Part shown: piece by piece, positions 35,146 through 58,306 of the stretch
Position numbering within the stretch: the first letter of the stretch is position 1
Layout: every line of letters starts with the position of its first letter
Assembly (NCBI GenBank): GCA_035771165.1
Contig: JAWNZC010000235.1
Location: 1 to 64,000 of the forward strand
DNA from: Paragorgia papillata
Lineage: Eukaryota > Cnidaria > Anthozoa > Scleralcyonacea > Coralliidae
Reading direction: 5' to 3'
Length of the DNA: 64,000 nt
Made by a program: the position numbers and the translations under genes
The notes under the pieces: generated by a model
What the model was told of the DNA's origin: nothing
The model's input: the letters and a program-made list of their open reading frames with translations, nothing else
Databases searched by the model: none

Positions 35146-35156
35146 GGCTATCTTTA

Positions 35157-35420
35157 AAACGGGGAACGGGGAATCGGGGAATGGGAACGGGGAATGGGAA
35201 CGGGGAATGGGAACGGGGAATGGGAATCAGGGGGGTGTCAAACGGGGAATCAGGGGGGTCAAACGGGGAATGGGAACCAGTTGGGGTGTAAAACGGGGAA
35301 TCAGGGGGGTGTCAAACGGGGAATCAGGGGGGTCACACGGGGAATGGGAATCAGGGGGGTGTAAAACGGGGAATTAGGGGGGTTTCAAACGGGGAATGAG
35401 GGGGTGACAACAGGGAAACA
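35157..35420. repeat. Left terminal minisatellite of the MULE
   Basis: Starts as GGGGAATGGGAAC 13-bp units, then passes into AATCAGGGGGGTGTCAAACG-type units of about 23 bp. Inverse of the right terminal array. Confidence 0.88.
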
Positions 35421-35939
35421 GGGAATACATTAAAGAAGCCCAAATTACATTTATGTAGACTGATATAAATGCACCCACGGCATGCTAATTCTCTAGGTAC
35501 TCGTGCTATGTAATCAAGATTTACTTGCTGCGTACAGGAAATTTTTAAAACAGTACGTTATTAAGTCTGGTTTTCGTACGTTGGCAATGTTTTTCTGGCC
35601 CCATTTTCAGTAATCATTAATGAGAAAAATTTATTGGCTAGTATTCTCTCTTTCATTGATCACCAAAAATGCCAATGGAACATGGGAACATCTCCGATAA
35701 ATTGAGATGAATGAAAACCAGGCTTTTGTAAATACATTTTTATTGTTTATATTGGTATTTTTTAAGCTTAGAAAATTTCTGCATACAAAAGTACGCATTG
35801 ATAACATACAACCAATTTGAATTGACTAGGCCAAGGCATTAAGTTTCATGAAAGTTAGTTATCCAAAAACAAAATATCTTGACAATGTAGCAGGGCAAAT
35901 TAGTTGCACACACTCATGCAACTGATATAATCATGTAGT

Positions 35940-36075
35940 GAAATAAAAGTAGCGTGCTGCGTAGGCAGTGTAGAAACAACAATCGAAATATAGTTAGGAG
36001 TCTAACGTTTCGAGCGAAGGTCCTTCGTCAGAGAGAAACGTCAGTATATCTAACTTTACTATATTTCGATTGATA
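35940..36075. repeat. Partial copy of the GTTTCGAGCGAAGG MITE
   Basis: Contains the AGTAGCGTGCTGCGTAGGCA flank and the TAACGTTTCGAGCGAAGG core in a compact, fused form; a shortened relative of 36478-37043. Confidence 0.6.
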
Positions 36076-36477
36076 TTATCATGATGGATATTTCCATGTT
36101 GTCTTTGTAATTTACTCGTAACAGGAACAAAAATTATCTACTAGTAGTAATAGAAGCATTATATAGTAATAATATCTAATATAGAGTAAAATGTTTCTCG
36201 ACTCTGGTTGTTTCCAGTGCAATAAATTCCAAAGAACACTGCAAAAGTCTGTTTTTACAGTGCAAAAATTTGTTCCCACAGTGCAAAACTCCGTTATCAC
36301 AATTTACCGAAATTTATAGTGAATTTCGCTTTAATTTGGCAAGTGAAGTGCCTGCTAAAACTCCTAAGCAATGTATTAAAGTACTCTTTTCAGAAAAAAA
36401 TCTGTATACTGGTTAAGTGTATACTGCTATTATCAGTACAATATAAGTAGCGTGCTGCGTAGGCAGCGTAGAAAGAA

Positions 36478-37043
36478 CAATCGAAATATAGTAAGGTTAG
36501 GTATACTGCCGAAACAGAGAACGTAGGAGTCTAACGTTTCGAGCGAAGGCCCTTCGTCAGAGAGAAACGTAGAGTGTAAACAAACAATGAGCTTATATAC
36601 GAAAGGTAATCATGTGACCAAAAATAAGCCAATCAGATAAAAATGACAATAACAAATTGATAATGAGATGCGAAAAATTAGCCAATCAAAGCAAAATAAC
36701 AATAACAAATAGATGATGAGATGCGAAAGACATTTGCTATTCATACCGTCGATGAGTAAAAAGGAGGGGGTGTAAAAAGGATGAGCGAGAGTAAAAATAA
36801 ATTAATTAATAAAGTTAAATTAAGTGAAAACGCTGTTTATGTCCGCCCTTGCTGAACAGAAACAACGTCTTCAGAGGTGTTAAATAAAAGAAAAACGTTC
36901 GTTGAGTCCGTGAGGGTGAATGGTACCACTATTGTTTGTTTACACTCTTTACGTTTCTCTCTGACGAAGGGCTTTCGCTCGAAACGTTAGATTCCTACGT
37001 TCTCTGTTTCGGCAGTATATCTAACCTTACTATATTTCGATTG
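36478..37043. mobile_element. MITE with about 115-bp TIRs (CAATCGAAATATAGTAAGG)
   Basis: Ends CAATCGAAATATAGTAAGG inverted on both sides; each arm carries the motif ACGTTTCGAGCGAAGG. 566 bp, non-coding, in the 3' flank of the transposase gene. Confidence 0.78.
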
Positions 37044-37224
37044 TTATTATTAGTACATGTGTTTCGAGTGCAATTTGGAAAAATAAGCACTAAAACGTCT
37101 CCTGCGCCCAATTCCGGCTTCATTTAAGGTATTTAATCCAGTATTATTTCGAGATCAGTGCTGGCAAACCATACGAGGAACACTGAACTAGAAAAGCGGA
37201 TTCAGTTAGTTGCGACTGTTAAAG

Positions 37225-38691
37225 TTACGGTATCCAACCAAACTCTGCATTCAATCTTTGGATATGCTCATAATGAAAATATTGCGGGAAATCGTCAGGT
37301 ATCACAAGGGCACTAGCTCCAGGAAAATTCGGATACCTTAATCTAATGAAAGCAATTCGAAGGTGGAAATGTACGTTCTGGGGTGAAGGCGTAAAACGCA
37401 CCTGTCCAGTGTTTCGTTCCCGGAATTGGCGAATATCGCGATACACCACAGCAAGGTCATCTGGAACTGATTCGGGTGGGTTTTTTATTTCTCCATTGCA
37501 ACCATAGCAGCGAGAGACAGTGGTCCCTCCAACCCACTTCAATCCAAACGAGGTGCCTTGGCTAGACGATGCAGGCGGTGATGGAAAAGTATGTTGGCTG
37601 GCCGCTCCAGGATTACTTGGGCGATTTGTACTTTGCCAGCCACTCTGCACATGTTGCTGATGCATTGGAACGAGGGGCACAAAAGGCAAGTTAGGTTGAG
37701 ATGGGACAAGCAATGCAGGTGGATGTACCCGAGCAGGCAATGGTTGATGAGGTGGGACAACCAATGCTGGTGGATGTACCGATGGTTGCTGAGATAGGAC
37801 CCCAAATGTTGGAAGAGGTGCTGAAGTAGAATCGTTTTCTTGTAGGATATCGACCACTTCAGTTACAGTGGCTTTTACTTTGTTGGGTTTTTTCCGTTTG
37901 CTAGGCTTTTTCCCAGCGTTCTTTGGTCCGCTTCCCAGAGCCATCTTAAGTACTTTTGGCCCCCTTCGAGATCGTTTGTACCATTGCAGGTATTCTTGCA
38001 ATGAACCCCGAACATGTGCTACTGCTAAAATATGTTCGCAAATGTCTGTTGAAAAATTCACACAACTTCGATCGCATTTAAGACAACCGCCTTTTCCAGG
38101 GGTAACGCAGTGGATTGTGTTCCCAAAGCCAGCGACAACAAAAGACCCATCAGAAGCTCCTGGCTTTGGTACTGCGTTGTTGGGCGTTCTCACCAAGTCG
38201 TTTGCCTTGCGAAACATAGTTTGAAGGATTGCTGAAGGAACGGTCGAGATTCCTGTACCAGAAGCGCTTACTGAGAGAAGCGGTGCAGATGACGAGGACT
38301 GAGTATCAACCTTGCCTCTTTTACTGGAAAGATCTTTCTTGCATTCCATGCCACTCTTTACAAACTTTTCAATTTTTGATCTCTTTTCCTCAGGGCTCAA
38401 TTCACTCCACTTATTTTCGTCAACGGCGAGATGTTGAAATTCTGGTCGAACTTCGTATGGCCCTTTGCCAAATAGTGCGCGGTCCTCGTTACGAAATTGT
38501 GTCTCCACAATGTTCCGCATTTCATCTACAAATTCATGTGGCTTTTTCGGATCAAACTTTAATTCGTGTTTGATCATGAAATTTGCTGCTTCCGGGTCAT
38601 TGTTAGTATACTCTTTCGGCCCATTCGGGGGATTCCCAAGTCCGGCTTCGATCCTGATTGGCTTGAGCATAGACTCTTTGACGTGGGTAGC
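37225..38691 (-). CDS. Exon 6: SWIM-like zinc finger and C-terminal domain
   Basis: 489 codons from acceptor CTTTTTAG to TAA. Starts ATHVKESMLKPI, continuing the transposase. Near the middle is GGCLKCDRSC..DICEHILAVAH, a CxxC..CxH SWIM-like zinc site, followed by a lysine-rich patch (KPSKRKKPNK), a proline-rich region with HPPALVVP repeats, and a C-terminal domain with SRCYGCNGEI, a possible zinc ribbon. In MULEs the SWIM domain follows the transposase, as here. Intact. Confidence 0.82.
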   Translation of the reverse strand, partial: ATHVKESMLKPIRIEAGLGNPPNGPKEYTNNDPEAANFMIKHELKFDPKKPHEFVDEMRNIVETQFRNEDRALFGKGPYEVRPEFQHLAVDENKWSELSPEEKRSKIEKFVKSGMECKKDLSSKRGKVDTQSSSSAPLLSVSASGTGISTVPSAILQTMFRKANDLVRTPNNAVPKPGASDGSFVVAGFGNTIHCVTPGKGGCLKCDRSCVNFSTDICEHILAVAHVRGSLQEYLQWYKRSRRGPKVLKMALGSGPKNAGKKPSKRKKPNKVKATVTEVVDILQENDSTSAPLPTFGVLSQQPSVHPPALVVPPHQPLPARVHPPALLVPSQPNLPFVPLVPMHQQHVQSGWQSTNRPSNPGAASQHTFPSPPASSSQGTSFGLKWVGGTTVSRCYGCNGEIKNPPESVPDDLAVVYRDIRQFRERNTGQVRFTPSPQNVHFHLRIAFIRLRYPNFPGASALVIPDDFPQYFHYEHIQRLNAEFGWIP

Positions 38692-39400
38692 CTAAAAAGC
38701 GGTAAATTTCGTAAGTTTTTGTTTTAGCAAATTATGCAACCAGGTGAGTTACCTTGACACATCTTCAGTTAAATTATTAATTCGGTGTAGTGTACTGTTT
38801 ATACCTTTCTATCCCGTGAGCTGCTTGACGTGAGTGAGTACGTGAAAATCTAGTCAGGACCGTGACTACCAATTTGTTATGTTGCCAAACAACCGTACCT
38901 CAAATTTTTAATACCGGTAAACGCGGCCTTTTGGGCTTCGTGACTACACTATTTCATGTTTTAACCTATTTGCTTCTACGTAGTAAAAAATCAAGCATTC
39001 AAAATTAGGAATTTGAACGCGTATAATAACTTCTTTGGATATGGCAACGCCATAGGCGATTTGAGCGCGTGCGTATAATTCAGGATATCACATTAGTAGA
39101 TTAATAACAGCTGTCCAAGAAATACGAAAAGTTCATCGCACTAAGTAGCAGATTTACTACACTTTCACTTAATAGGTTAACCTTTAAGTGGCAATATAAA
39201 TCTGCCAATTATTATTTTCAATCTGTCTAACATCACATGCACGATTTTACTCGCCAAGGTGCAACCTCCGGCAAATGGTCTCTTAAAGCATTAATATCAT
39301 ATTATGCGTTGTTTTCGTAGCAGTCAGATTTAGCAAGACGAATGAAAGCGTTATTTAATTAACCGAGTATCCCCATGCAAACCTTCTATCAATTATATAC
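38692..39400 (-). other. Intron 5 of the MULE gene
   Basis: 709-bp GT-AG intron with no separate feature recognised. Confidence 0.6.
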
Positions 39401-40464
39401 CTTTTCTTTGCAAAACCATTCGTAGAACGTACTGGCACGAGTCGAACCACCACACTCAGCTTCCCTTGCGTTCCATCGCTCTTCCAGGCTCTCCAGTTTG
39501 GTCTGAAACTCTTCTTCGCTGTCGCAATCCACCAATCCTGTATACTTTATCTGCTCCTCTTGTTTCCCAAAGATCTCGTTGAGAAAAAATTTCTTGGCCC
39601 CAGGCGAAATTCCCCGTCGCTCCAGCTCTCTTTTTACGTTGTCCTTAAAGTGAATGAAACATCTAAGGAGTAACGCAAATCGAAAATTGCGCTTCAGGCC
39701 ATCTATTAAAGCTTTCTCACCATCTGTGCCACAGGCTAGCACTCCTTCAAGATCTGGACATTCAGCAATAAGAGAGTTCGCGAATCTTGAGTAGGTCTTC
39801 CAATCCTTTCGTTGGTGCATAAGAAGCGGGCCAATAAAAACTGGCGGTTTCTGGGTCGCGTGGTGGTGCAATTTCAGATTCCGGTAAGTCATCACGGTCA
39901 AGCTAATATTTTCTTCGAAAATATTAAATGTTGGGTCCACTCCAAGAATACAGAACTCGTCTGCATTGGTACAGAAATGTTTGAGATCTTGAAGCTGACG
40001 GTTGCTGGCCAGAACAACGAGAAAGTCTGGATGAATTCTGCATTCTCGTATAAAAGCGGAATCATTACCCTCTTCTTCTTCCCTCTTCGCATTCTCCAGC
40101 AACTGCCAAATACCCTGCACTTCATTGATGTTGGCGGACTTCTGCTCGTTTTGTCCGAATTTTCTTTCTTTCTTTGCAGCGAATCTTGCGTTGTACACAT
40201 CGCGTGGTCCCCGTGGAAGTTGCCCAAGATTTCGAGCTTCCGTCACATCCCCAACTGAACGATACACATTGTCTAGCAACTGCTTTGGGGTTTCTTTCTT
40301 GCTAGCTGTAGAAGCCTGTAATGCTGTCCGTGTGCTTTGAAACATACGTCTGTATGAACTTCCCTTCTTTGAGTTTCCATGAGGTAATGGCGTCTTTACT
40401 TCATGTTCTTTGTCTTTGAAAAGATATTGAACAAGAGTATACCTTGACTCTACCCCTTTGCAAT
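39401..40464 (-). CDS. Exon 5: MULE transposase catalytic domain
   Basis: 1,064 bp. After SRYTLVQYLFKD and PHGNSKKG it contains the MULE/DDE core: LGVDPTFNI with the first Asp, a central strand GPLLMHQRKDW, then ACGTDGEKALIDGL with the second Asp, and LLLRCFIHFKDNVKREL. The C/H dyad near the second Asp (RCFIHFKDN) is typical of MULE transposases. It ends at a GTATAT donor in phase 0. The reading is open across 354 codons. Confidence 0.82.
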
Positions 40465-40632
40465 CTATATTAATAACAAAATGGGATAGATAAAAAAGCT
40501 TGCTACAAATTACATTGTATCAACTGTATTCTACACATTAATCTAATCCGCAACAATATGTTTTTATACCACTACGATACGTACAATGTACAAGCCAGTG
40601 TTCTCATACAAGTTGAACAATGCTGCATTATT

Positions 40633-40664
<32 letters not shown>

Positions 40665-40984
40665 TGATGTTTACTTAAAACTGGATATACATTGCTACTT
40701 CAAGTTTCACTCACTCACTCACTCACTCACTCACTCACTCACTCACTCACTCACTCACTCACTCACTCACTCACTCACTCACTCACTCACTCACTCACTC
40801 ACTCACTCACTCACTCACTCACTCACTCATCTACTTACACGACTATGACTTATTGCCAATTCGATGCATATGCCTCAAAATAGAATTGATCTAGTTTACA
40901 AGTATGTGATATACTTCAAAACGCCAGTATTATACAAACATACAGTATTGCTATGCAATTAGATCCGTACTGATGCATATTTAC
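40465..40984 (-). other. Intron 4 with AT and TCAC microsatellites
   Basis: 520-bp GT-AG intron. Holds an AT run (40640-40664) and about 31 TCAC units (40707-40830). Confidence 0.65.
40707..40830. repeat. TCAC tetranucleotide repeat
   Basis: About 31 almost pure copies; open frames across it are artefacts. Confidence 0.95.
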
Positions 40985-41421
40985 CTTGCAAAGTGGAAAC
41001 AATCTTTCCCACATCCATACTAGATTTATTGATGTAATAGATTCTCTTGAGGATAGAAGCATTTGTATCCTTAGCGTTGCTGGCATCAGTGCTGTGCAAA
41101 ATTTCTTTGATTTTTCCCTCTTTGGTGTACGTGACAGCAATTGACCTCTTCGGCGAACCAGTGTGAATCCATGCACCCATGTCGTCGCACTTTATGTCGT
41201 TTTTGTTCTTCATACTTGCGTTATTGACCAAAAACGCTACGTTATGGGCTACATTAATCGGTGGCGCAACGCACAAGCGTTCGGTAGCATACTCCCCGAG
41301 CAAAATTTTGACCAATTCGTCCAACGAATATGCTTCACTTGCCCATTCAAACACAGGGGTTAGTGCGTCACCTTTGTAGAGAACTACCTCTGTGTCTTTA
41401 TGTTCTTCAGAACTTGAATTA
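40985..41421 (-). CDS. Exon 4: N-terminal region of the MULE transposase
   Basis: 437 bp between acceptor TTTTTTAATAG and donor GTAAAT. Encodes CDDMGAWIHTGSPKRSIAV and KRIYYINKSS, a pattern I associate with the conserved segment that precedes the MULE catalytic domain in hexacoral MULE/SWIM proteins, where it probably binds DNA. No frame break. Confidence 0.68.
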
Positions 41422-42088
41422 CTATTAAAAAAGTGAATTTTTGTTCAGCTACATAATGGGGACAGAGAATTCATTTTTAAAGCGCTAAATTCGCGGAGTG
41501 TACAATATCATTGCTTTTGATTGCTATTAATGTTTTGAACGTTATTAACGAGTAGGGGAGCGACTATCAATGACCGCTATAGATCAACGAGGATAATATC
41601 ATTGGAATAGAATGATAGACTCTTGACACTATTAACATTATTCCGTCTCTGCGGGCGGTAAATACTGCATGGGACAACAAAAAGTGTTGGGACAGCTTGC
41701 AGTTTCGTGCAATTTTTGACGATTTGCACTTGGTGTCCCAAGAACTTTTGACCAGGATTGTAGGTGTCGATACGAAATTGCGCTAGGCTATATTCTGACA
41801 TTATTTCATAAGCTGCTCGTCGGCAAGTAGAAACAACAAGGTGTAAACGCTAAACACTAGTGTTTTGAGAAAATTATCCAGGTGCAATGTCGAGAATAAA
41901 ATCCACATATGGAAAAGGCGACCAAAATAGTGAGCCTTGTTGTTGATGCAGACTTGCCGTGCAAAGTTGCAAGAACACTATACACGCTGTACCAATCAAT
42001 GTACAAGTTTCAATATAATGCTATTAATGCGAGTTGGAAATGGAAAATTTTTACGGACTAAACATTTAATTATACCGAATTAAGTTAC
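41422..42088 (-). other. Intron 3 of the MULE gene
   Basis: 667-bp GT-AG intron. A 74-codon frame at 41577-41801 has no domain and is not needed for the model. Confidence 0.55.
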
Positions 42089-42180
42089 CTGCTTATGCAA
42101 ATGCTTTCGTGGATTGCCGTTATCTGCAAGTCATCTTGCTCATCGCGAGATCTACTTACAGTCAAAAGACTGCCTGAAAT
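42089..42180 (-). CDS. Exon 3: linker
   Basis: 92 bp between acceptor TATCTTTCAG and donor GTAACT, encoding SRSRDEQDDLQITA. No domain. Phase agrees on both sides. Confidence 0.6.
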
Positions 42181-43481
42181 CTGAAAGATAGAATCGTTTT
42201 GTTAATAAGAAAAGAGGAATATTGCTATTTTATGCATGTTGGCATGTCTCGTTCTTGAACTCATAACTAAATCTAAGGTGTTCAATTATATGGAGCCCGC
42301 TTTGCCGAGATCTCGCGTTCAATATTATTTTTTGTTATTTCCATTTTCGTTTATATGCGAGACCGTTTGCGGGACCGAGATCTCGTGGGAAAATATATGC
42401 TGTTGTAACCACTCGGTAAGAGGGCTAGAAATTCTCATATAAACATGGGATGAACTTTTCCTCGGCAAAGCGGCCCAGCCCGAGAACCCGGGCTAGCCTG
42501 GGTGACGAAATTTTATTATCAATAAAGAATGTATGACCAGATCATTTTAAGCGCCTTACAAACTTTGCACAAATACCATGCCAATGACAATGCTTATCCA
42601 CGATCTAGCTATTTATCTTCAAACATAATCAAATGCATGTTAAACAAAAGCTTTCTACCTATTGATTTGAAAAAATCTCCTAAAATACTAGCCCTTGTAG
42701 CTTACTGTTTTCATATTATCATATCTCTCATTGCATTATACGTTTTTCCCCCACTTATTTATCGTTCAAGCTCTATAACGTAACATAAATAGACGATATT
42801 ACACGGTGGTAAGATATATGAATTTTATCTTCGAGTGGTGAAAACAATATTTTACGGATGAGCGTAGAGAATCAGAAAAATATTGTTCTTACAAAGAGAA
42901 GAAAAATTCATAACTTTAGTGTGCCACCGTGTAATTTTCTTTTTATTATATATAGATTTAATGAAAACAAATGGAGGAAATGCTTAATAAGGTCATCGAT
43001 ATCTTCACTAGTGAGGATATGAAAAATAAATTTCACTGCATATTCCCTAGTAAAACACTTTTAATAATGATCATTAATAATGATCATTTGGCATGCAGTT
43101 AACACAATGATCATTCTGCAACATACAAAATGTTCAGTTTGGGCATCTTATAAACAATACTATACGAACTGACAAAATACTAGCTCCCGTTACCTTTGTA
43201 TGCTTACCGCTCAAAAATATTCAACAATCAAAAAAATTATTGCATGCACGGAAGGCCCGTTAACCCTGGCGATGTTGATTCATCACACATGCATGTGATT
43301 ATTCATTCTAAGCTAAATGCTAAAATACTTTCCTAAGATATCTAGTCAAATTGAAGCGTGGATCGCCAGTGTAAACAGTCCCTTACATGTCCACGTATAC
43401 AGTACACGTACACGAATTAAGAAGATGCGTAATTACAACATCAGTTCCGAAACAACCCAAAAAACGCAAGAAAATTTTTAC
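42181..43481 (-). other. Intron 2, with MITE and repeat sequence
   Basis: 1.3-kb GT-AG intron that has taken up repeats: 42285-42500 (CGCTTTGCCGAGATCTCGCG with an inverse CGGCAAAGCGG), the ACACGGTGG MITE, and a block at 42936-43070 that recurs in intron 1. Confidence 0.6.
42798..42935. mobile_element. ACACGGTGG MITE
   Basis: 138 bp, ATTACACGGTGG and its perfect inverse at the ends; inner inverted AATTTTATCTTC-like arms. Inside intron 2. Confidence 0.72.
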
Positions 43482-43594
43482 CTCAGATCCATTACGAATT
43501 TCATTAGGTTCTAAATCCTCCAATATTATCTCGTTGGCATTAACACCATAGGGACTAGCTTCTTCCTGAACTCCACGGCAGTCGTCTTCGGTAT
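43482..43594 (-). CDS. Exon 2: acidic linker
   Basis: 113 bp between acceptor CCCATTTAG and donor GTAAAA. Encodes an acidic stretch (DTEDDCRGVQEEASP) with no known domain. Its entry phase fits exon 1 and its exit phase (0) fits exon 3. Confidence 0.65.
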
Positions 43595-44326
43595 CTAAAT
43601 GGGCGATCAATTTTGCTCTTTTAGTTTCATTGTTTAAATAACTAGCTTAACCTTTTGCAAAACATGCACTTGCTACCAAACCAAACTGCAATCTAATACC
43701 AAGAATGTTGTATGCAGACTGAATTTTTTTCAATGACTTGATACAAATTCTGTAATTTTACTATCGACAGATTACTTAGTTTCTTTTTTTTACCACGGGA
43801 GTATCCAAATGATTACTAGGTTATTTGGGGTATAATTAAACAGCGGACGGCGAAACTGCGGACATGCAGAACCTAGTTGAAACACGTTTTTCTTCGTGAA
43901 AACTTTGTTGCAGGTTTATTTTAAAAAGAGGAAAAGCTATTTAATTTCGAACCCTAATTAAGACTTTCAGTCCAATACAGATTATATATTTATATCTTCA
44001 AGCGACCGTGTAATTTTCTTTTGATTATATAGATTCAATGCAAAAAGCGGAAAAATTCTCGATGACTTCATCGACATCTTCACTAATGAGGATATGGAAA
44101 ATATGTCACTGCATATTTCCTATAGTAGAACACTCCCAACTACTGTATATAATAAAAGACGATACACTATATATGAAGTGTAAAAGTAATCAGTAGCAGA
44201 CTTGACGGAAAAAAGCTCTGGGAAATGATGAAGTTTGCCGTTTGTAGGAGCTTAAATTCCCAAATATATAAAACCCAAAAAACATAATCTTATTACAAAA
44301 AACTTAGGTTAGTACATGTAACATAC
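43595..44326 (-). other. Intron 1 of the MULE gene
   Basis: 732-bp GT-AG intron. 43985-44135 repeats, in the same orientation, the sequence at about 42925-43070 (CCGTGTAATTTTCTTT, then ATCTTCACTA and TGAGGATATG). Confidence 0.6.
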
Positions 44327-46030
44327 CTCCAGTTTTGTTTAACCACGCCAAACTCTGCGGCGTTTTCGCATCCACGCCACTTAGTCTTAGTCGCTTCAGG
44401 ATCCACTGGGTTATCAAACTGCAAGAACGAGATGTACGATCAGTCGTTGCCACAAGAACCCCATTTCCATTGCCACCTAACTCTTCTGCAATTGGATGTG
44501 TATCCACCAAAAAGAAGGAATCGTCGTGTAGAGCTATCATGAACGTGTAAGGAGAGCAGGTGTACACACCAACTTGATTCGTAATGCCCGATGGAATGCT
44601 ATTGAAAGCATCCAACAGTTCATTTCTTCCAGACTCAGAAAAAACACCACTGCCAGATACGCACTCTTCTGATAAATCGTACTGTCGACTTAAAAGTCCA
44701 TTTGATGCAAGAATGGCTTTGGCCTCGGATGGCTCGTACGTTTCCGAAGAATCTCTTAAGCCATTAATTTTCCTTGGTAGCTCGGTTATTATGTCCTCAG
44801 CCAATCTTGCCAATTGAGGCCAAGATAGGCGCTGGTCTCCGTTTTCCCGTTGGTTCAAGAATGTGTCGCAAATGGCGAGTGCAAGAAAGGTGCATGCGTT
44901 GGTTCCGTCATTCAGTGGAGGCTGTGGAGCTTGTAGCTCCAATTCTGATTGCGGCATCGACATTTCAACTTGAAGTTGATGCGCAACATTTACGTCGGCG
45001 TTTACGAGTGCGGAATTCTGGCTGACACTTAGAGGTTGGATTACGAGGGAGGCTTCTGGGTCGTTTATCTTTACTCTGCTTAAGACGTCCGCTACCGAAG
45101 GTCTACAGTTAGGATCAAACTTTGCGCACATGGAGAATACATCTGCTGCTTGCCACCATCGCGTAACGCGGAATGATTCATACTTCGTGTCGTGGCTAGG
45201 AAGCTGTTTAGCTTGCATAAACCGTTTCATCGTTTCCATATTGAATTGGACACCCAATTGTTCCGACTCTTTGCGATAGGGGTTTGTTAGGTTTGGATTT
45301 ACCAGAGCGTAGGCTAACAAGCCCAGGGACCAAATATCCATTTTCTTCAAATCAGACTGAGTTGCTGCTGTTAAAAGACTCATATGAATTTCTGGAGCCA
45401 TGTAAACCGGCGTACCACGGCAGATATCTTCGGTACGCGATTGCAAGATGGATTGTGTTTGAGTGTCCAAAGATCTACTCAGGCCAAAGTCAGCCACCTT
45501 ACAAATAATGGGACAATGTTCGTATTCTTTCTCAACCTCTAATTTATCTCTATCGCAATAGTGTTGATTTGAAACTAAAATGTTACTCGGTTTCAAATCT
45601 CGATGAGCAATTCCCGCTTGATGAAGGAAATTCAGACCTGTTAGGACATCCCGAAGACAAACTATGATAACATCATCAAACGATTCAAAATCAAACTCGC
45701 AGTCAACAAAATGATAGAAGTCTTCTAAAGTGCTTACCGTCTTCTCGAGGCCAAAAGGTGCGAAGTCAAATGCGACGTATTCCATCATTAGCCCGGAGGG
45801 AGTATCGGAAAATCCAAAAAATTTGGGGATATTCGGGTGATTGATTGCGTTTAGCATCTCTGCTTCTTTTAAGAAACGGCGTTTGGCGTCGTCAGATTCC
45901 CCTCTGAGTTTCTTAACAACGGCATTCTTTTCTTCATAGTTTGCCAAATAAATTGAACCAAAACTACCAACTCCAAGCTCGCGTTGAATTGTGACTTTTT
46001 TTCAATCAAACGTAGGCAACCCATGGCCAT
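44327..46030 (-). CDS. Exon 1: protein kinase and papain-like domain
   Basis: Complete kinase core: glycine loop GVGSFGSIYLA (45,980-45,945), lysine in NAVVKKL, catalytic loop HRDLKPSN at about 45,600, DFGLS, VYMAPEI and DIWSLGLLAYAL. After a linker comes a second domain with NDGTNACTFLALAI at about 44,900, a plausible nucleophile Cys, and FFLVDTHPI at about 44,500, a plausible His, as in papain-fold deubiquitinase-like proteins. MULEs are known to carry ULP- or OTU-type proteases, which makes this plausible. The best ATG (46030) is separated from the kinase frame by one base within an A7 run at 45996-46002. In the kinase frame itself there is a TGA at 46004-46002. The exon ends at a GTATGT donor in phase 1. 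Confidence 0.78.
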
Positions 46031-47693
46031 GACAATTTTTGCGCTTCTTAACAAGAATCGGGACTTTAAAACTTCTTGATATCCCAGACATAAGAACAAC
46101 TCCGAATTTTACGGACTAATTACACCTGTGATTTTGTCTTTACGCTGGCGAATCAACAAGTTCAATCGGCATCGCTACTACAGCAGTGAGTACACGTGCA
46201 GCATTACAATGCCAGGGAAGCAAACAAACGTAATATGATACGCGCTGAAAATTAATATCTCTAACTATACATTCTTTTAGATATTTTCCAAGTTAACGGG
46301 TGTTCTAATTTAATGGATATAAACCCAAAATAGGGTGACGGAAAGTGCGATTCAAGACCCGCGCTAGTCGTTTCGATTCGGAAACATTGTCATTAAACCG
46401 TTACAGGGCTAGTTAGCCTTGTTTCATCGTCAGGCGATGTTTTTAAATCCGCGATACGATTTGAGAACTTTAGAGCATATCCTGTTGTATTCTGCTCAGG
46501 CGGTGTGCGCCATGTTATTCGAGGAAATATGGCCATTATGCGTTCGACCATCGTCGAGTGCATGAAGAACTCCTCGAAGTAACGTTTGAAAGATTCTGGA
46601 CAAATGTGAAATCTTAGGATATTTAATAATGATAAATTGTGTTTCATTCTTGTTTTTTTAAGCAAGTCAAAAAGCCGGTTGGTTCATCAAGACCATCAAG
46701 CCCTGACAGCTCATTGGGAGTGCGTTTTGGGGGCATGTGAGAGATAAACCATAGAAAACATTATTTTATCAATACGCTTGCCGCCTGAGTTTGCAAAAGC
46801 CGTCAAGCCGAAGCACATTATTCGTAATCGTATTTTTGATATGCTAATATTGCGGACTGCCGACACCAGCAATTAACAATTTTACCAGTTAACAATGAAA
46901 TATAAACAATACTAGTATTATTAGACGACAAAGTCGCAGACTGTTTCCTTTTTTGAACCAAGAAATAGCCTTTCTAAATTACAAAGTAACTAAGCTTCTT
47001 GATATAGATTTCTCCATGCTTTCCTTTGAATAAGGTTGATGTATTTCGTATTAAGGATATCTTATTCTTTAGCAGTTTAAAACAAAAAAGTCGAAAATCT
47101 AACCGTACTCAAATTACATTTGCGGTCACACAAAACAACAACTCAAATTCACATGCCATAAAATACCATCAGAAACTTGTTTTCTTCCAACCTGAGATGT
47201 AACTACCCACTTTTGTATGTAAAGTTCACAATTATATAAAAATAATTGACAAATATCTTAATAAACAAAGCCTAAACATACTGCCGGTCTTTAAGTGTTA
47301 TTAGTTTGCCATGCTGCGAACAGATCATTGCCTCACACGGTCTGTATTATGAATGAAACAGGGTTTATTACAAGTTCCAGAGTGTAGATTTAGTTATACT
47401 GTAAGCTCCGAATATTGCCGCACAGCCTATCACGAGGTTGTGAATCCGGTCTAATGGTCTATAGTATATTATATAGTGTAGAAATTTGGTTTCATGGTTA
47501 AACTCTGTTAAACACTTAAACCTTGCGCTAAATAGTGAAACCGAAAACTGTTATTTCTCTTTACTGATAATACTGTTTTTCTCTATAACACAGGATTTGA
47601 ACTTAAGCTATGAATGGCATTCCGAACGGACGACGTCGCAGCGATTTGTTTGTTCGAACCTTGCCTAAATACATATTTCAGCTGACTCCCCGT
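46031..47693. other. 5' flank of the MULE gene
   Basis: No further exon recognised in 1.66 kb. The 91-codon frame at 46393-46665 has no domain. The promoter must lie here if 46030 is the start, but no clear TATA box with initiator was picked out. Confidence 0.4.
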
Positions 47694-47899
47694 TTTATAC
47701 CCCCCTGATTCCCATTCCCCGTTTGACCGCCCCCCCTGATTCTCCCTTTGACACCCCCCGTTCCCATTCCCCGTTCCCATTCCCCGTTCCCATTCCCCGT
47801 TCCCATTCCCCGTTCCCATTCCCCGTTCCCATTCCCCGTTCCCATTCCCCGTTCCCATTCCCCGTTCCCATTCCCCGATTCCCCGTTCCCCGTTTTAAA
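47694..47899. repeat. Right terminal minisatellite of the MULE
   Basis: About nine units of GTTCCCATTCCCC (13 bp), then the inverse of the element start. Inverted relative to 35157-35420. Confidence 0.9.
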
Positions 47900-48087
47900 G
47901 ATAGCCATTCTTCGGCCACGGATATCATTTCTACCGTCACGTCACTGAATTACAATTTCCAAATTAAAAACCACATCATGTCTATGTCTTTCTAGCTTCT
48001 TTCAGCCATGTTTATTGAATATATCAGCTTCGCGCAGCGCGCGCGTCCACGCGAGGCCTGGAACTGAGCGATTCCACCGTGACTATA

Positions 48088-48685
48088 ATGGAATGTTTAC
48101 ACGGTGAACCTGCATCTTCGACAATTACACAGAAGGGTACGTTCTGGTTCTGTGGACAGAAACCTAGTTGCGAGTTCTTTTGCCCAGAAGAAGATTGCTA
48201 CATGTTTGGAAAAGCCGTAGCCTCCTTCCATGAAAGTGGATGTATACATCCAAGGTGCTATGGCCATGGACGACTAGCACAGATGCGAATGGTTAAAGAT
48301 AAGATGAAGGAAAGTTATGGGAGACCATACTTTGTTTGCTCCGAACGAGGAAATCCCTGTTCGTTTTGGCAATGGGCTGATGTCTTCGAAGGTATCAAAC
48401 CAATATGTCGACATGGTCTGATTTGTCGTACTAGCAAAGTCAAGAAAGAAAGTCCTAATCAAGGTCGTCTATATTTTACTCTCCCACGAGAGAGAAAACT
48501 GCTGTGACTTTTTCGAATGGAAACCGGAAGAAGATCCCCTTGAACCATTTTCCACTGTTCTGTTTAGTATGCCACCATCTTACAGATATACAGTCAAAAA
48601 GACTGGAGAGACATTCACGAGCCATGAAACTGATCATAAGAAAGCCTACGAAGAGTACCTTTTTCAAAAGTCGGTAGCTAAATGA
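48088..48685 (+). pseudogene. Triple GRF zinc-finger protein, frameshifted
   Basis: From ATG 48088, three Cys-rich modules of GRF type. First: CLHG ... GTFWFCGQKPSCEFF. Second: GRPYFVCSERGNPCSFWQW. Third begins CRHGLI ... GRLYFT and, in the next frame, continues with CCDFFEW. GRF zinc fingers bind single-stranded nucleic acid in APE2, NEIL3 and TOP3A. Reading shifts by one base at about 48485-48500, and the second part ends at TGA 48683. About 199 codons in all. First gene of the Polinton plus-strand cluster; it may serve replication or genome handling. Not one of the standard Polinton core genes as far as I know. Confidence 0.68.
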
Positions 48686-48818
48686 CTTGACTATAGACTT
48701 GGAAAAACTGCACATTTGCTGAACATTTATAATTTTGTATTATAATTATCTATCTAATAAATATATGTTTATACCTGACTTTTTTGTGATTCATTTATCT
48801 CCAACTTTGGTCGTGTGA

Positions 48819-49045
48819 ACACGAATTGTTATAGACCAATACAGCGCGCATACGCTATGGATTACAATTTTTGATGAATTAAAACAACATAACATTGATA
48901 TCGATAAAGATACGTTATCATTTTATATTCAGACATGTCTTGACGACCATCGACACCTGTTTGATAGTTTTAGCGATCAATTAGATCGTGTGAACCTTCA
49001 TCACATCTATGAAGAAATGGATCAAGAAATGGATACCGTGTCGTA
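48819..49045 (+). CDS. Hypothetical small acidic protein
   Basis: Open frame of 75 codons ending at TAA 49043 with sequence such as DELKQHNIDIDKDTLSF and HHIYEEMDQEMD. It has no ATG near its start; an acceptor-like TTGTTATAG lies at 48826-48834 but uses a different frame. The composition looks coding, and it sits between the GRF gene and the integrase, overlapping the decayed integrase N-terminus. Not recognised. Confidence 0.35.
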
Positions 49046-49156
49046 AAAAGTGACGGAAAATTCCAGATATCTCGAAACAAGATAAAAACATGGCTTAGAT
49101 GAAGCCATAAACCCGTACGACATATTTTCAAGCGAAATCGTGTTATTGTTGGAGCG

Positions 49157-50002
49157 ATGGATGAACAATGGGAGGCGGATCTAGTAATTATGGACTCGCT
49201 TAGTAAAACAAATAATGGTTATAAATACGTTTTAACTGTTATTGATGTACTGTCCAAATTTGCGTGGGTGGAACCATTAAAAACAAAGGCTGTAGAGAGT
49301 CTGGTTAAAGCCTTTAAAAAGATACTAAAGAAAGGAAGGAAGCCGGAAAAACTTCATACCGATAAAGGAACAGAATTTACCAATAAACGTTTTCAAAAGT
49401 TATTGAAGGACAAACATATTCGATTTTTTACAACACACAACGATACCAAGGCATCCATCGTTGAACGATTTAACCGAACCTTAAAGGGGAAAATGTGGAA
49501 ATATTTTACAGCAAAGAATACGTTGAAATATACCGATGTACTACAAAAATTAGTATATTCCTACAACCATTCGAGACACCGTAGTATTGGGATGAGACCA
49601 GCTGATGTTAATCGAGAAAACGAAAGTATTGTGTGGCTAAAACTGTATGGTGATGAGTCCAGCAAACTCATCAAATATAAATTCAACATTGATGACCAAG
49701 TTCGGATTAGCAAAGCAAGACGTACATTCAAGAAAGGTTACTTACCTAACTGGACCGAAGAGGTGTTCACCATCACTAAGCGAGTACCCAGACGACCGCC
49801 AGTGTACAAGATTGCTGATTATCACAGAGAAGAGTTACAAGGAACATTTTACGAACAAGAATTGCAAAGAGTTAGAAAGACAACAGTAATTACGTCACGC
49901 ATGCGTGGTAAACGTAGAGAATATCTTGTAAAATGGTTAGGCTACCCTGAAGATTTTAATTCATGGGTATCAGCCGATAATGTAAAAGATATAACGAAAT
50001 AA
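49157..50002 (+). CDS. Polinton integrase with C-terminal chromodomain
   Basis: Retroviral-type DDE integrase that inserts the element. Seen: WEADLVIMD with the first Asp (residue 8), LHTDKGTEF with the second (69), SIVERFNRTLK with the Glu (103), and a C-terminal chromodomain (YLVKWLGYPEDFNSW) that in relatives targets chromatin. 281 codons are open. The same frame continues upstream to at least 49046 (KSDGKFQIS..KTWLR, typical of the family) but is broken by a TGA at 49100-49102, and no HHCC zinc finger was found. So the catalytic core is intact while the N-terminus is lost or out of frame. The start chosen is the first ATG after the stop. Confidence 0.85.
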   Translation: MDEQWEADLVIMDSLSKTNNGYKYVLTVIDVLSKFAWVEPLKTKAVESLVKAFKKILKKGRKPEKLHTDKGTEFTNKRFQKLLKDKHIRFFTTHNDTKASIVERFNRTLKGKMWKYFTAKNTLKYTDVLQKLVYSYNHSRHRSIGMRPADVNRENESIVWLKLYGDESSKLIKYKFNIDDQVRISKARRTFKKGYLPNWTEEVFTITKRVPRRPPVYKIADYHREELQGTFYEQELQRVRKTTVITSRMRGKRREYLVKWLGYPEDFNSWVSADNVKDITK

Positions 50003-50050
50003 AAATGTGTGTATTTTACAATTTGTGTTCATTTGTGTATTATTCTTGAC

Positions 50051-50803
50051 ATGGCAACACAGTTTTATTTAACGCTTCCAAGCAATAGCTCAATGGAATA
50101 TTTTCCAGATAATACTGTAGCAAATTTTAAAGTTAAACTTGCTGAAACTATACAACTGACAGGCGACTGGGAAGTAGCTTTATCAGAGTTATATTACCCC
50201 CATACATGGAGCGCGATTCGAAAAGGTAGTCAACAAACGTTTCTCTATAACGCTGGAACAAAATATGACGATACGGGTATTATCCCAGATGGCTACTATA
50301 AAACCATTGCTGAGCTGGTGGGGGCTTTAAACCGTAGCATGAACAAAGAGGCACGAGCAAAGATAAATTTTACGTATAATCGAAGTACACGGAAAGTTGC
50401 CGTCGATGTAAAAAATGGGGCAAACGTTTGGTTTAGTGGTGACATTGCTACAACATTGGGGTTTCAACAAGACACCTTTATTTAAAAGAAAACCCTAAGT
50501 CCTTACGTAGCAGTTGTTAACTGTGGATTTTCAGCCATGTATGTATACACTGATATCGTGGATGCACAGTTTGTCGGTGATGTCAAAGTGCCCCTACTCA
50601 GAATTGTCAATACTCAAGGAAGTTATGGTGAAAACGTGAACGTCAGTCTCCGTAACCTACAATATATTCCTGTCAAGGTAAAGTCCTTCGAAACAATCGA
50701 AGTGAACATAAAGGACGACAAAAACGAAAACGTATCATTTGGCTTCGGGAAGTCGATCGTGACACTTCACTTTAGACAGCGAAGATCTTCGTATTTCATT
50801 TAA
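50051..50803 (+). pseudogene. Polinton minor capsid (penton-like) protein, one internal stop
   Basis: Starts MATQFYLTLPSNSSMEYFPD, then DWEVALSELYYPHTW, a pattern I know from the Polinton minor capsid protein, a jelly-roll protein at capsid vertices. The frame is open to 50482, has a TAA at 50483-50485, and continues in the same frame to TAA at 50801 (VYTDIVDAQFVGDV, KSFETIEVNIKDD). Full length would be about 250 residues. A single nonsense codon is the only visible damage. The neighbouring integrase ends 49 bp upstream; the next gene starts 3 bp after the stop. Confidence 0.8.
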
Positions 50804-50805
50804 AA

Positions 50806-51279
50806 ATGAGACATACAATTATTCCAGACGTAAAGCAATTTCAACAGCATTATTTAGGAAGACAACAAGGTGGAAGTCTACCTGGTTTCCGAGGTGCACG
50901 TATTCAGAAAGGTTACGGCATTGGAAGTTTTTTTTAAAGTATTGCACGCTTTGCAATACCTCTGGTGAAACGATGAGCTCAAGCTATTGGAAGAAGAGCT
51001 CTGCAAGCTGTAAAAGACGTTGGTCAAGATGTTCTGGCAGGGAAGAATGTAAAGCAAGCGATAAAAGGGCGTGGTTCTGAAGCCGTGAAAGATCTTGCTC
51101 AAAAAGAGGTCCGTCGGATTACGAACCAATCAGGAGCCGGTCGTAAACGCAAACGGGTGAATTCTCCTATAAAAGTCATCACAAGACGTAAAACCGTCAC
51201 TCGTTCGCAAACTGTGAAGAAGAAAACATCTGAGCCTACGGAAGCAAAGATTGGACCGTTTATAAAATATAAATCATGA
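50806..51279 (+). pseudogene. Basic virion-core-like protein, two internal stops
   Basis: Frame from ATG 50806 to TGA 51277, interrupted by TAA 50935-50937 and TGA 50974-50976. Features: LPGFRGARIQKGYGIG, a short hydrophobic/amphipathic segment (IARFAIPLVK), and a strongly basic tail (GRKRKRVNSPIKVITRRK). The layout resembles the basic or membrane-active minor virion proteins placed between the two capsid genes in Polintons and adintoviruses. Its end overlaps the capsid start (ATGA). Assignment is by position and composition. Confidence 0.6.
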
Positions 51280-52616
51280 GTCAAGCTTTTAGTGCCCTAC
51301 ATAAAGATTCGTGTGAGTGTGCAAAATCAGAATTAGATTTATTTGTAACGCCTGCTACACAAGTAGAAATGAATAAAGGATTTGGGGAAGATATAGATCC
51401 AGTGTCGAGTATTGGAGCTTCAGACACCATAGAGTTTCTCTGTGCTGCAAATTCTGATGTGTATACCGATTTAGCAAACAGTTATCTACACGTGAAAGCA
51501 AAAATAACCAACCATGATGGAACTAATCTCGATAAAAATGTTCAAGTCGGACCTGTAAATCTGTGGATGCATGCTTTATTTTCTCAAGTAGAAGTTTACC
51601 TGAACAACAAACTTGTCACACCGTCGAGCAATGCTTATCCCTACCGATCATATATGGAAACTGTACTGAACTTTAGCAAAGACGCAAAATCATCTCATCT
51701 GACCTCTGCGCTGTTCTATAAAGATCAAACTGGTCGAATGGATGTCGTGAACCCCGTGGCAGTAGATGCCGATGCAAACAAGGGTTTGAAACTGCGGTAT
51801 GTTCATGCAAATCAAAGTAAGTATGTGGCTATGGAAGGCAGAATCCATTCCGATCTGTTTGCACAAGCCATTTATATCCTTGGTGCTGTACCAATCAAGC
51901 TCAAGCTAGTGCGTTCGAGAAACCCATTTTCCCTAGTGTCGTCAGCAGATCATACTGACTTTAAAGTGGTTTTGGAAGAATGTGTATTTCGCGTTCGACG
52001 TGTCAACGTCTCTTCTACCGTTATGATGGCTCATGCCCATGCCCTTCAACGTATCATGGCCAAGTACCCTATCAATCGTGTCAGTTGTAAAGTCGTTTCT
52101 ATACCGAGAGGAAATATGTCGGACAATCAACCAATTCAAGGCCCTATACCGGATCGAGTGGTCATTGGAATGGTAGATGCAGATGATTACAATGGTACCT
52201 ATACCAAAAATCCTTTCAATTTCAAAAACTACGACATCACTTCTCATGGTCTAACGGTAAATGGGGAGCATTTGCCTGGAAAACCCCTACAATTGAAATT
52301 TGCTGCTGCGAGAGGAAGTAACTACGTGTCCGCTTTCCAAACCTTGTATGCTGGTGCTAACAAATTATTTCAAAATGATGGCAATGGTATTACACGAGAC
52401 GAGTGCGCTAATGGGTACACTCTATTCGTGTTTGATCTAACAGCTGATCTGTGTCTGAGCGATCATATTCAACCGATTAAAAATGGAAACGTATCGATAG
52501 AATGTCAATTTGGTACGGCTCTGACAGCAGCTATAAATATCGTGGTGCTTGGAGAATTTCAAAGTCTTATCGAAATTGACGCCAACCGAAACGTTCTATG
52601 TGACTTTAGCAGTTAA
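51276..52616 (+). CDS. Polinton major capsid protein (double jelly roll)
   Basis: 446 codons, intact. Hexon-like double jelly-roll capsid protein. Typical features: an N-terminal SELDLFVTPATQVEM stretch, FLCAANSDVYTDLANSYLHV, LWMHALFSQVEVYLNNKLV in the first barrel, and SFEC-like FKVVLEECVFRVRRV before the second barrel. The length fits the family. It begins within the stop of the preceding gene (ATGA overlap at 51276-51279), and the protease starts 2 bp after its TAA. It is the only core structural gene without a break, in an otherwise decayed element. Confidence 0.88.
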   Translation: MSQAFSALHKDSCECAKSELDLFVTPATQVEMNKGFGEDIDPVSSIGASDTIEFLCAANSDVYTDLANSYLHVKAKITNHDGTNLDKNVQVGPVNLWMHALFSQVEVYLNNKLVTPSSNAYPYRSYMETVLNFSKDAKSSHLTSALFYKDQTGRMDVVNPVAVDADANKGLKLRYVHANQSKYVAMEGRIHSDLFAQAIYILGAVPIKLKLVRSRNPFSLVSSADHTDFKVVLEECVFRVRRVNVSSTVMMAHAHALQRIMAKYPINRVSCKVVSIPRGNMSDNQPIQGPIPDRVVIGMVDADDYNGTYTKNPFNFKNYDITSHGLTVNGEHLPGKPLQLKFAAARGSNYVSAFQTLYAGANKLFQNDGNGITRDECANGYTLFVFDLTADLCLSDHIQPIKNGNVSIECQFGTALTAAINIVVLGEFQSLIEIDANRNVLCDFSS

Positions 52617-52617
52617 G

Positions 52618-52830
52618 ATGAACACTCTACAAATCCTGGACGTTCTGAAAAGTGATCCATTTACCAAGACCGTATTATTTTAAAGACGTGTTACCATCGA
52701 ATCATCTACCAAGCCAGATATCTGAAAGACCTAGAGGTTTTATTCTGAATGTGGATCCTAGTAATGGACCTGGTACGCATTGGGTAGCAATTTATCTCAC
52801 CACAGATGGAAAAGGGGAGTTATACTCTGG
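52618..52830 (+). pseudogene. Adenain-like maturation protease, 3' half deleted
   Basis: Starts MNTLQILDVLKSDPF, then shifts frame near 52668 and continues with RPRGFILNVD and THWVAIYL, which holds the catalytic His of the Ulp1/adenain-type cysteine protease. Similarity stops at about 52826. The downstream acid residue, the Gln and the catalytic Cys are absent. Immediately afterwards the minus-strand ATPase gene ends, so a deletion has joined the two convergent genes tail to tail. Cannot be functional. Confidence 0.72.
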
Positions 52831-53458
52831 GCTGGTACACGTAGTGGATGTCAGTCGGAAAGATCCCGGATCTTACTCGGATTTCATCGGGACAGGTCGG
52901 AGTGAGATCGACAAACAAGTAGGAATATGGCTCTTTAGTTGCCATCTGATAGGCTTGCTGGAAAAACTTTGTGTTGCTGGGATACAGCTGTTTCGCCAGA
53001 TGAATTACTTGACTAGCATCGCGGACATTTTTCGTGAGGACTAAGTAACTAGCGTTGAGAGAGATGGTACGGTGATCTTTGCTTTGATGAAATAAGTTTT
53101 GCACGATATAAATTACACTGAGATTCCATGGTGGGATTTTTTCGTAAAGAGTTTAGCAATTTCAGCGTCTTTTTCTCCCATCATATCATCAATTATAAAT
53201 AGATTTCTTGTTTGGGGGTTAATGTTATCCAACATCGACTGGGGCAAACCTTGGACAAACTGAATCCCTGGAATTAAGGTTTCTATTTCACCAAATGTAT
53301 CTTGATATTCTGTATAAAAATACACGATGTTTTTCCGGAGGTGGATCGATCATGATCTTAGCATAAGCCAATAACTGTTTCACAAACGTTGTCTTTCCTG
53401 TCTTAGTACCTCCAGAGACCAAGAGACCAAAAGGGTGTGTTAGCTGTATGGAGTACAT
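52818..53458 (-). pseudogene. Polinton packaging ATPase, copy 2, frameshifted
   Basis: From ATG 53458: HPFGLLVSGGTKTGKTTF (Walker A GGTKTGKT), MIDPPPEKH; shift near 53328; then LFIIDDMMGEKD (Walker B) to 53113; shift; then QNLFHQSKDHRTISLN and a C-terminal part ending at TAA 52818-52820. Order and spacing match the FtsK/HerA-type packaging ATPase. At least two frameshifts. It faces the protease gene, and its stop lies at the deletion junction. Confidence 0.8.
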
Positions 53459-53490
53459 AGTTAAACTGAGCAGACCGATCTAGTGAAATC

Positions 53491-53727
53491 TTATTTATAC
53501 CATTTTGGCCGCTTCGTACATTGTGCCCATTTTGTGTACTTAGTATTTCGGATAAGTCTGTGTAATTCGTTTAACAAAGTTTCTAAATCTTTAGGAGAAG
53601 CTTTAGCGCGAATCAAATATGGTTGCCTATCTTTTGAAGAGAGTTGATGAACATTGGATAAATGATTTGCTAATCTTAATAAACCTTGGTTGCCACAGAC
53701 AGGACAATCCTTACGCCTTCGAGGCAT
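53491..53727 (-). CDS. Small C2H2-type zinc-finger protein
   Basis: 78 codons from ATG 53727: MPRRRKDCPVCG, then LANHLSNVHQL, giving a CxxC..HxxxxH finger, then a helical tail (DLETLLNELHRLI). Intact. Small single-finger proteins of this shape accompany cnidarian Polintons as I recall; function unknown, probably DNA or RNA binding. It lies 32 bp upstream of the ATPase in the same direction. Confidence 0.62.
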   Translation of the reverse strand: MPRRRKDCPVCGNQGLLRLANHLSNVHQLSSKDRQPYLIRAKASPKDLETLLNELHRLIRNTKYTKWAQCTKRPKWYK

Positions 53728-54050
53728 GATAACAAATGAACGATTTGAAAAGGTACTCAAAAATAAATACTTTATATTGCCCTGGGGGGCTTTTTCGTGG
53801 CCATATGGCCCTATCGCTTGAATACACTCCCTGTCCCCTCTGACCCCCCCCCCCCCTACCCATCTGCTCTAAAAGACCCTCATTAAGCCCTTGAACCGCC
53901 ATACCAGAAATTAAGACAACAGGTAGTGTTAATAAGAGATATATTATTAAATTTCCTATTTACAAGTACACACAAAAGTATTAATTATCAGCACACAAAG
54001 TTAAAAACCCTAAACTATTTACAATTATTTACAGATCCCATGTACAAAAA
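53728..54050. other. Spacer between zinc-finger gene and polymerase
   Basis: Contains a C run at 53847-53860 and two stop-rich frames. The 63-codon frame at 53711-53902 is composition noise. Confidence 0.45.
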
Positions 54051-58096: not shown

Positions 58097-58098
58097 TG

Positions 58099-58195
58099 CT
58101 GTCAATGAAACAAAACGTATATTAAACTCTGATAAAATACACAAATAGTGAACGTCGTCAGGCAATATAAAACGAATAAGTGCAAAATATCTTAC
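58099..58195 (-). other. 5' UTR intron of pPolB
   Basis: 97 bp with donor TTAAG|GTAAGA and acceptor TTTCATTGACAG, ending two bases before the ATG at 58096. Together with the TATA box at 58312-58319 it gives a capped-transcript model with a leader of roughly 100 bp. Confidence 0.62.
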
Positions 58196-58306
58196 CTTAA
58201 ATCAGACAAATACACTTCGAAAATATCTCCCAAGAAAACGCAATATCACAGACAGTAAACTCCACAAGTAAAACACTTTAGGAAAAGTTGCAACTATACG
58301 AAATCA

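Follow-up and report, generated by a model that had tools for sequence, protein, structure and literature searches.

The window analysed here, a stretch of 64,000 nucleotides from the cnidarian Paragorgia papillata (contig JAWNZC010000235.1, positions 1 to 64,000 of the forward strand), contains on its minus strand a gene whose exons would encode a Ser/Thr-type protein kinase, a peptidase and a transposase, which raises the question whether these domains are parts of one protein of a mobile element or have come to lie next to each other in another way. We consider it probable that the locus is a DNA transposon of cnidarians from the group of Mutator-like elements (MULEs), whose single gene gives rise to one polypeptide containing, in this order, the kinase, a deubiquitinase-type domain as found in herpesvirus tegument proteins (VTD), a middle domain, a DDE transposase and a SWIM-like finger, and where the VTD would shield and the kinase would license the transposition machinery. 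Within this reading, we hold the structural description of the element and its protein with high confidence, and we offer the functional roles of kinase and VTD as a tentative proposal.

The mobile nature of the locus is manifested at its borders (Table 1), where repeat analysis identified terminal inverted repeats (TIRs) with 81-nt arms (35146-35226 and 47826-47906) that are 100% complementary, with G-rich repeats beyond. Searched with at most two mismatches, the end motif GGCTATCTTTAAAANGGGGAAC is found at 81 sites of the 618-Mb genome (42 in forward and 39 in reverse orientation), compared with 0 and 1 sites for its reversed control, and many of these sites form facing pairs with a spacing of mostly 2-6 kb. 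The flanks were compared for 12 pairs, comprising the window, the sister element on C311 (57986-77480) and 10 other exact facing pairs, with C471 and pairs whose end motifs carry mismatches being left out. Target-site duplications (TSDs) of 10 bp with at least 9 matching positions were found in 7 of these 12 copies, 6 of which are perfect, and in none of 132 mismatched pairings. The element on C311 is flanked by the perfect 10-bp duplication GTAGCCATCG and the C241 pair by a perfect 9-bp duplication, while the remaining four pairs score 8, 7 (the window), 6 and 3 out of 10. Three internally deleted copies retain the ends and part of the kinase exon between perfect TSDs, with break points that correspond in the window to 45121/38099 (C86), 45290/36228 (C89) and 45278/38406 (C95). 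The kinase stretch of C86 is open, and the C89 copy must also contain insertions, since its end pair spans 21.9 kb. Long TIRs and a TSD within 8-11 bp (10 bp in this case) are, together with the DDE transposase, shared with MULEs of the Ghost, Spectre and Phantom clades, as described in PMC6446971, and at the level of the sequence past mobility of the element family is evident. Ends carrying two mismatches (GGCTATCTTTAAAATAGAGAAC) are located 1.2 kb before kinase matches on C405, C14 and C113, which points to a second subfamily sharing the outer end. The element ends (35146-35417 and 47682-47906 in the window, 57986-58570 in C311) are made up of short tandem repeats rich in G, such as GGGGAATGGGAAC, which extend over almost 600 bp in C311 and could form G-quadruplexes. 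In viral contigs, the TIR motif has no exact match, and none of 44 pattern matches obtained with the MULE alignment was confirmed.

The combination of domains is not restricted to the window. MULE core matches in the genome (109 rows) merge into 90 loci and kinase matches (125 rows) into 113 loci, besides 50 rows matching the VTD. A kinase match is found within 10 kb of 22 of the 90 MULE loci, compared with 0.33 expected, and all 22 are located upstream of the MULE core on the same strand. Extending the distance to 20 kb yields 24 co-oriented and 1 opposite case (0.66 expected), and at 50 kb there are 26, plus 2 in reversed order and 3 in opposite orientation (1.65 expected). If only the 47 best kinase rows are counted, 24 of the 90 MULE loci have a kinase within 20 kb, and near the kinase of 22 of the 24 loci defined by this distance a VTD is present. 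Since the same domain order recurs at many places of the genome, the fusion is not peculiar to one copy and seems to represent a real type of transposon. Distances between kinases correlate with those between MULE cores (rho 0.50, p 0.0002, in 19 of the 24 kinase-bearing loci), with a contribution of close copies; after removal of the window family, rho is 0.56 over 16 loci. In a MULE tree of 35 loci including the same 19, the kinase-bearing loci cluster, with 5 state changes compared with 12 in shuffles. The kinase on C105 is nearest to the window family, yet its MULE belongs to another clade, and this locus may reflect chance or a mixed neighbour. Other MULE loci that have no nearby kinase match, among them C38, C448, C152 and C261, are interleaved with the kinase-bearing clades.

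The gene itself consists of six exons with GT-AG signals at all borders that join as one frame of 1,615 codons devoid of internal stops (Table 1) and that would be spliced together. In a blastn comparison with C311, all matches longer than 60 bases fall into exons 1, 4, 5 and 6 and the terminal repeats and not into introns, with the exons being alike at 64-70%. Among 153 proteins compared, alignments span the junction of exons 1 and 2 in 5 cases, of 2 and 3 in 4, of 3 and 4 in 5, of 4 and 5 in 8 and of 5 and 6 in 19, where P0131 at the first junction is a single open frame and not a splice, the second shows agreement at just 2 to 10 of 41 residues and the last includes relatives with an unbroken frame. 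The preliminary description of this DNA had regarded six phase-matched stretches bounded by GT-AG as exceeding chance, which is borne out by the confinement of C311 matches to exons and TIRs and by the junction-spanning proteins. Its six exons stand, but its limits do not, as the frame opens at ATG 46091 and contains a TGA at 46004-46002, the single in-frame stop upstream of 46001, and as the true ends of the element at 35146 and 47906, with their terminal repeats, had been overlooked together with this premature stop. The near copy on C458 and the sister on C311 are open at the position of the TGA and both begin with MSGIS as does the window, and the N-termini of P0001 and P0002 are comparable to its 29-residue start. 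The window copy has therefore probably been disabled recently and, owing to this one premature stop, is probably no longer functional; its next in-frame methionine is located behind the G-loop.

The connection of exon 1 to the remainder of the gene would be absent in a transposon with two genes, where the kinase-VTD exon is separate from the transposase exons and encodes an accessory kinase-deubiquitinase, comparable to the second gene of maize MuDR. We regard this arrangement as unlikely. It would be in line with the weak conservation of exons 2 and 3 and with the kinase-VTD unit being encoded, in many relatives, without interruption over roughly 500-630 codons, and several MULEs carry extra open frames (PMC6446971). 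Conversely, 7 of the 8 loci shown (C235, C458, C311, C406, C86, C87 and C372, with C100 being less clear) have a GGTA donor no more than 24 bases past the VTD end, and no stop precedes it in these rows; of the 14 loci queried, the other 6 lie on the opposite strand of the pieces or lack a match and thus gave no row. Independent gene models also cross the exon junctions, with P0001 spanning all of them, P0002 all but its missing parts and P0043 and P0148 those from exons 1 and 2 to exons 3 and 4, and P0006, judged by eye, continues from VTD-like sequence into the transposase.

The domains of the proposed polypeptide carry the residues required for catalysis. The kinase is recognized by Pfam as Pkinase (PF00069, E 6e-37) and contains the lysine of the VVK motif, the G-loop and the HRDLKPSN, DFG and APE motifs. 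Its best sequence matches in the PDB are STK10 (E 5e-16) and ULK2 (E 3e-14), and we have placed it in no family because the best match reaches only 62 bits. In PADLOC, the kinase matches those of defence systems (best mad6, E 1e-46), which we read as general kinase likeness, and the VTD finds no match. The peptidase region of exon 1 has a predicted papain-like fold closest to tegument deubiquitinases, with C370 and D500-T-H502 as catalytic residues, and the equivalent Cys and Asp-x-His are found in 15 of 15 loci. In a 30-row structure alignment of 27 of 31 VTD matches (P0145, P0150, P0152 and P0153 were omitted), P0001, P0002 and the window, the Cys and His are invariant and the Asp is nearly so. 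The transposase is of the RNase H-like DDE type with an Asp, an Asp followed by CxxH and a Glu, where CxxH after the second Asp is a MULE trait. Exons 5 and 6 alone have no match in Pfam, and neither does the window match public MULE or Transposase_mut profiles, with its relative P0079 reaching 25.0 bits compared with a cut-off of 27.6. Catalytic residues are largely conserved across loci, and kinase and VTD are predicted to be active.

Similar proteins are found in databases. A search with residues 340-1615 retrieved three proteins, each of which includes a kinase domain. The alignment with the window protein extends from end to end for P0001 and, with gaps, for P0002, and is partial for P0003. 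A search with the VTD region retrieved 31 proteins, 24 of which match PF00069, and the MULE profile retrieved 197, from which 46 relatives were chosen for the alignment of exon 5. Most of the 120 matches listed from this profile search are single-exon frames that are silent on the kinase. Hosts named among the VTD and MULE matches listed are Dendronephthya gigantea, Paramuricea clavata and Desmophyllum pertusum. The fusion of kinase and transposase proposed in the preliminary description is thus corroborated by full-length homologues, by the 22 co-oriented loci and by the TSDs around copies that contain kinase-exon sequence; kinase and transposase are not always separate genes in homologues, as all three proteins contain both, notwithstanding two Dendronephthya gene models described below. 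The papain-like protease proposed at the same time persists as a predicted fold and is now refined to the VTD type. The suggestion made there that this domain could counter ubiquitin-type restriction is compatible with the fold, and the suggested phosphorylation of the element's own transposase or of host factors is plausible. A VTD relative of 977 residues, P0145, is joined to TPR repeats and has no Pfam kinase match.

Between the window and C311, the proportion of synonymous differences (pS) is saturated at 0.73-0.87, and that of nonsynonymous differences (pN) is far lower, amounting to 0.188 in the kinase, 0.278 in the VTD, 0.272 in exon 4, 0.165 in exon 5 and 0.255 in exon 6. All parts, kinase and VTD included, have therefore been held by selection over the C235-C311 divergence. 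This constraint, the retention of most catalytic residues in subfamilies that are 35-55% identical to the window kinase and the correlation of kinase and MULE distances make it improbable that a MULE has taken up a host kinase-VTD gene as functionless passenger in the style of Pack-MULEs, even though capture of gene fragments has been described for MULEs (PMC6446971 and PMC6431247) and the nearest copies are decaying. In a Pack-MULE proper, captured fragments come without an own transposase, which is here part of the same element and frame. A host gene with a domesticated transposase, finally, would suit the long, intron-rich gene but is already contradicted by mobile copies, given the perfect TIRs, the 10-bp duplications and the dispersed and internally deleted copies, and deserves hardly any credence.

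Several observations weigh against a single, functional kinase-VTD-transposase gene. The flanks of the window element, ATTCTCTGAC and ATTCTTCGGC, agree at 7 of 10 positions only, and the deleted copies C89 and C95, unlike C86, contain stops within the kinase stretch. With the 47 best kinase rows, the 20-kb surroundings of 66 of the 90 MULE loci lack a kinase match, and a single kinase-bearing clade on the tree of 35 loci is rejected (p 2.5e-6). The association may be old with losses, may have been gained repeatedly or may result from module exchange; at C405 253047, a locus scored as kinase-less, a kinase match is present 26 kb upstream, outside the 20-kb cut. Exons 2 and 3, the weakest part of the model, have no match in C311, where an insertion or intron of about 1.4 kb interrupts the kinase exon. 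Since both exons are also poorly conserved, the join of exons 1 and 4 rests on the phases and on the models P0001, P0002, P0043 and P0148. Among the matches listed, the Dendronephthya gigantea gene models P0004 and P0005 contain no kinase. Compared with C458, dN/dS is 0.85 in the kinase and 0.63 in exon 5 (the value of exon 6 is spoiled by frameshifts in C458), and judged from these sequences both are decaying copies. Catalytic residues have been lost in places: the Asp and Asn of the HRD motif in C297 and C381, the catalytic Lys in C458, the first glycine of the G-loop in 3 and the third in 4 of 15 loci, the second transposase Asp in C406 and, by eye, the His of Asp-x-His in P0006, which reads Asn.

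Compared to known systems, the window element resembles MULEs also in its SWIM-type finger, which is present in some clades (PMC6446971), and differs by the kinase and VTD ahead of the transposase. With VTDs of Helitrons, Helentrons and herpesvirus tegument proteins it shares the predicted fold and the order of Cys and Asp-x-His (PMC9741609), but unlike VTD-containing Helitrons it is a TIR transposon with a DDE transposase and a kinase preceding the VTD; no Rep/helicase frame is present in the element and the model has no helicase match in Pfam. PMC9741609 reports cnidarian genes that fuse VTDs to various regions including transposon-associated domains, and a link between VTDs and transposons in cnidarians was thus partly foreseen; the novel parts are the kinase and the MULE context. 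Other Ser/Thr protein kinases have the same motifs and lack the fusion to a deubiquitinase and a transposase. We know of no kinase in transposons with OTU-type proteases, a feature of Ginger transposons. OTU-containing Helentrons likewise carry a deubiquitinase-type domain in a transposon protein (PMC9741609 and PMC6431247), with another transposition enzyme and another peptidase family. In open-licence PMC literature, outside of which are Repbase reports and most subscription papers, we recognized no report in which a MULE or any other transposase is fused to a kinase. The word 'kinase' occurs 0 times in the main texts of PMC9741609, PMC6446971, PMC13359780 and PMC6431247, as does 'Mutator' in that of PMC9741609, and kinase and MULE are separate genes in the passages of PMC5982333 considered here.

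In the mechanism that we propose, the VTD would remove ubiquitin attached to the transposase or to factors at the transposition complex and thereby spare them from the proteasome, a protective role that follows the proposal made for Helitrons by the authors describing VTDs (PMC9741609). The kinase would act in the same complex and would phosphorylate the transposase itself or host repair and chromatin factors, thereby timing or licensing excision. Host kinases affect the transposition of P-elements and mariner, and the usual view of cut-and-paste transposases is that host kinases and ubiquitin ligases act on them as passive substrates. The transposase could instead be a single self-governing enzyme, whose own kinase sets the timing and whose own deubiquitinase prevents its destruction, an idea that we consider possible, if rather doubtful. 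A transposon lineage that has spread through a genome with a selected kinase and deubiquitinase in its transposase would open the conflict between transposon and host over phosphorylation and ubiquitin to direct tests, and the VTD family would gain a second transposon home beside Helitrons. Herpesviruses carry the same pairing of a tegument-type deubiquitinase and a Ser/Thr kinase, there in separate genes, and cnidarian transposons would, if the proposal is true, be a possible place of assembly for such sets of counter-defence tools.

Table 1. Features of the MULE in the window; positions refer to the 64,000-nucleotide stretch.
Feature	Position	Strand	Remarks
Whole MULE element	35146..47906	.	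12,761 bp; 81-nt arms and end motif common to 81 genome sites
Left TIR and G-rich subterminal repeats	35146..35417	+	Flank ATTCTCTGAC
Exon 6	37225..38691	-	Third acidic residue E1161; SWIM-like cysteine finger 1330-1347; C-terminal domain
Exon 5, MULE catalytic core	39401..40464	-	D949, D1020, CxxH 1041-1044
Exon 4, conserved domain	40985..41421	-	Weak DUF7747 match, under cut-off
Exon 3, linker	42089..42180	-	GT-AG and phase; poorly conserved; no C311 match
Exon 2, linker	43482..43594	-	GT-AG and phase; poorly conserved; no C311 match
Exon 1 from stop onwards	44327..46001	-	Kinase residues 5-308; VTD about 318-558
Start codon (46091) and 29-residue N-terminus	46002..46091	-	Closed by in-frame TGA 46004-46002 in window copy
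Right TIR and subterminal repeats	47682..47906	-	Flank ATTCTTCGGC

Besides the gene, the element contains three other frames of at least 120 codons, all on the plus strand and 123-155 codons long, two of which are antisense to exons 5 and 6, with the third covering a microsatellite in intron 4, where a long array of the tetranucleotide TGAG extends over 40700-40830; in the near copy C458, the region around exon 4 is disrupted. Behind the gene and within the element, a 105-nt inverted repeat (36473-37048, 94% complementary) resembles a miniature inverted-repeat transposable element. On C458 (17787-21081), the left part of the 97% copy gives way to foreign sequence at 17787 and the terminal motif returns at 21060-21081, as if something had inserted there. 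Adjoining the right end of the MULE, the region 48019-58201 of the window contains Polinton-like pieces, including a GRF finger, an integrase with a chromodomain and fragments of DNA polymerase B, together with a long frame that has no Pfam match and appears capsid-like by eye.

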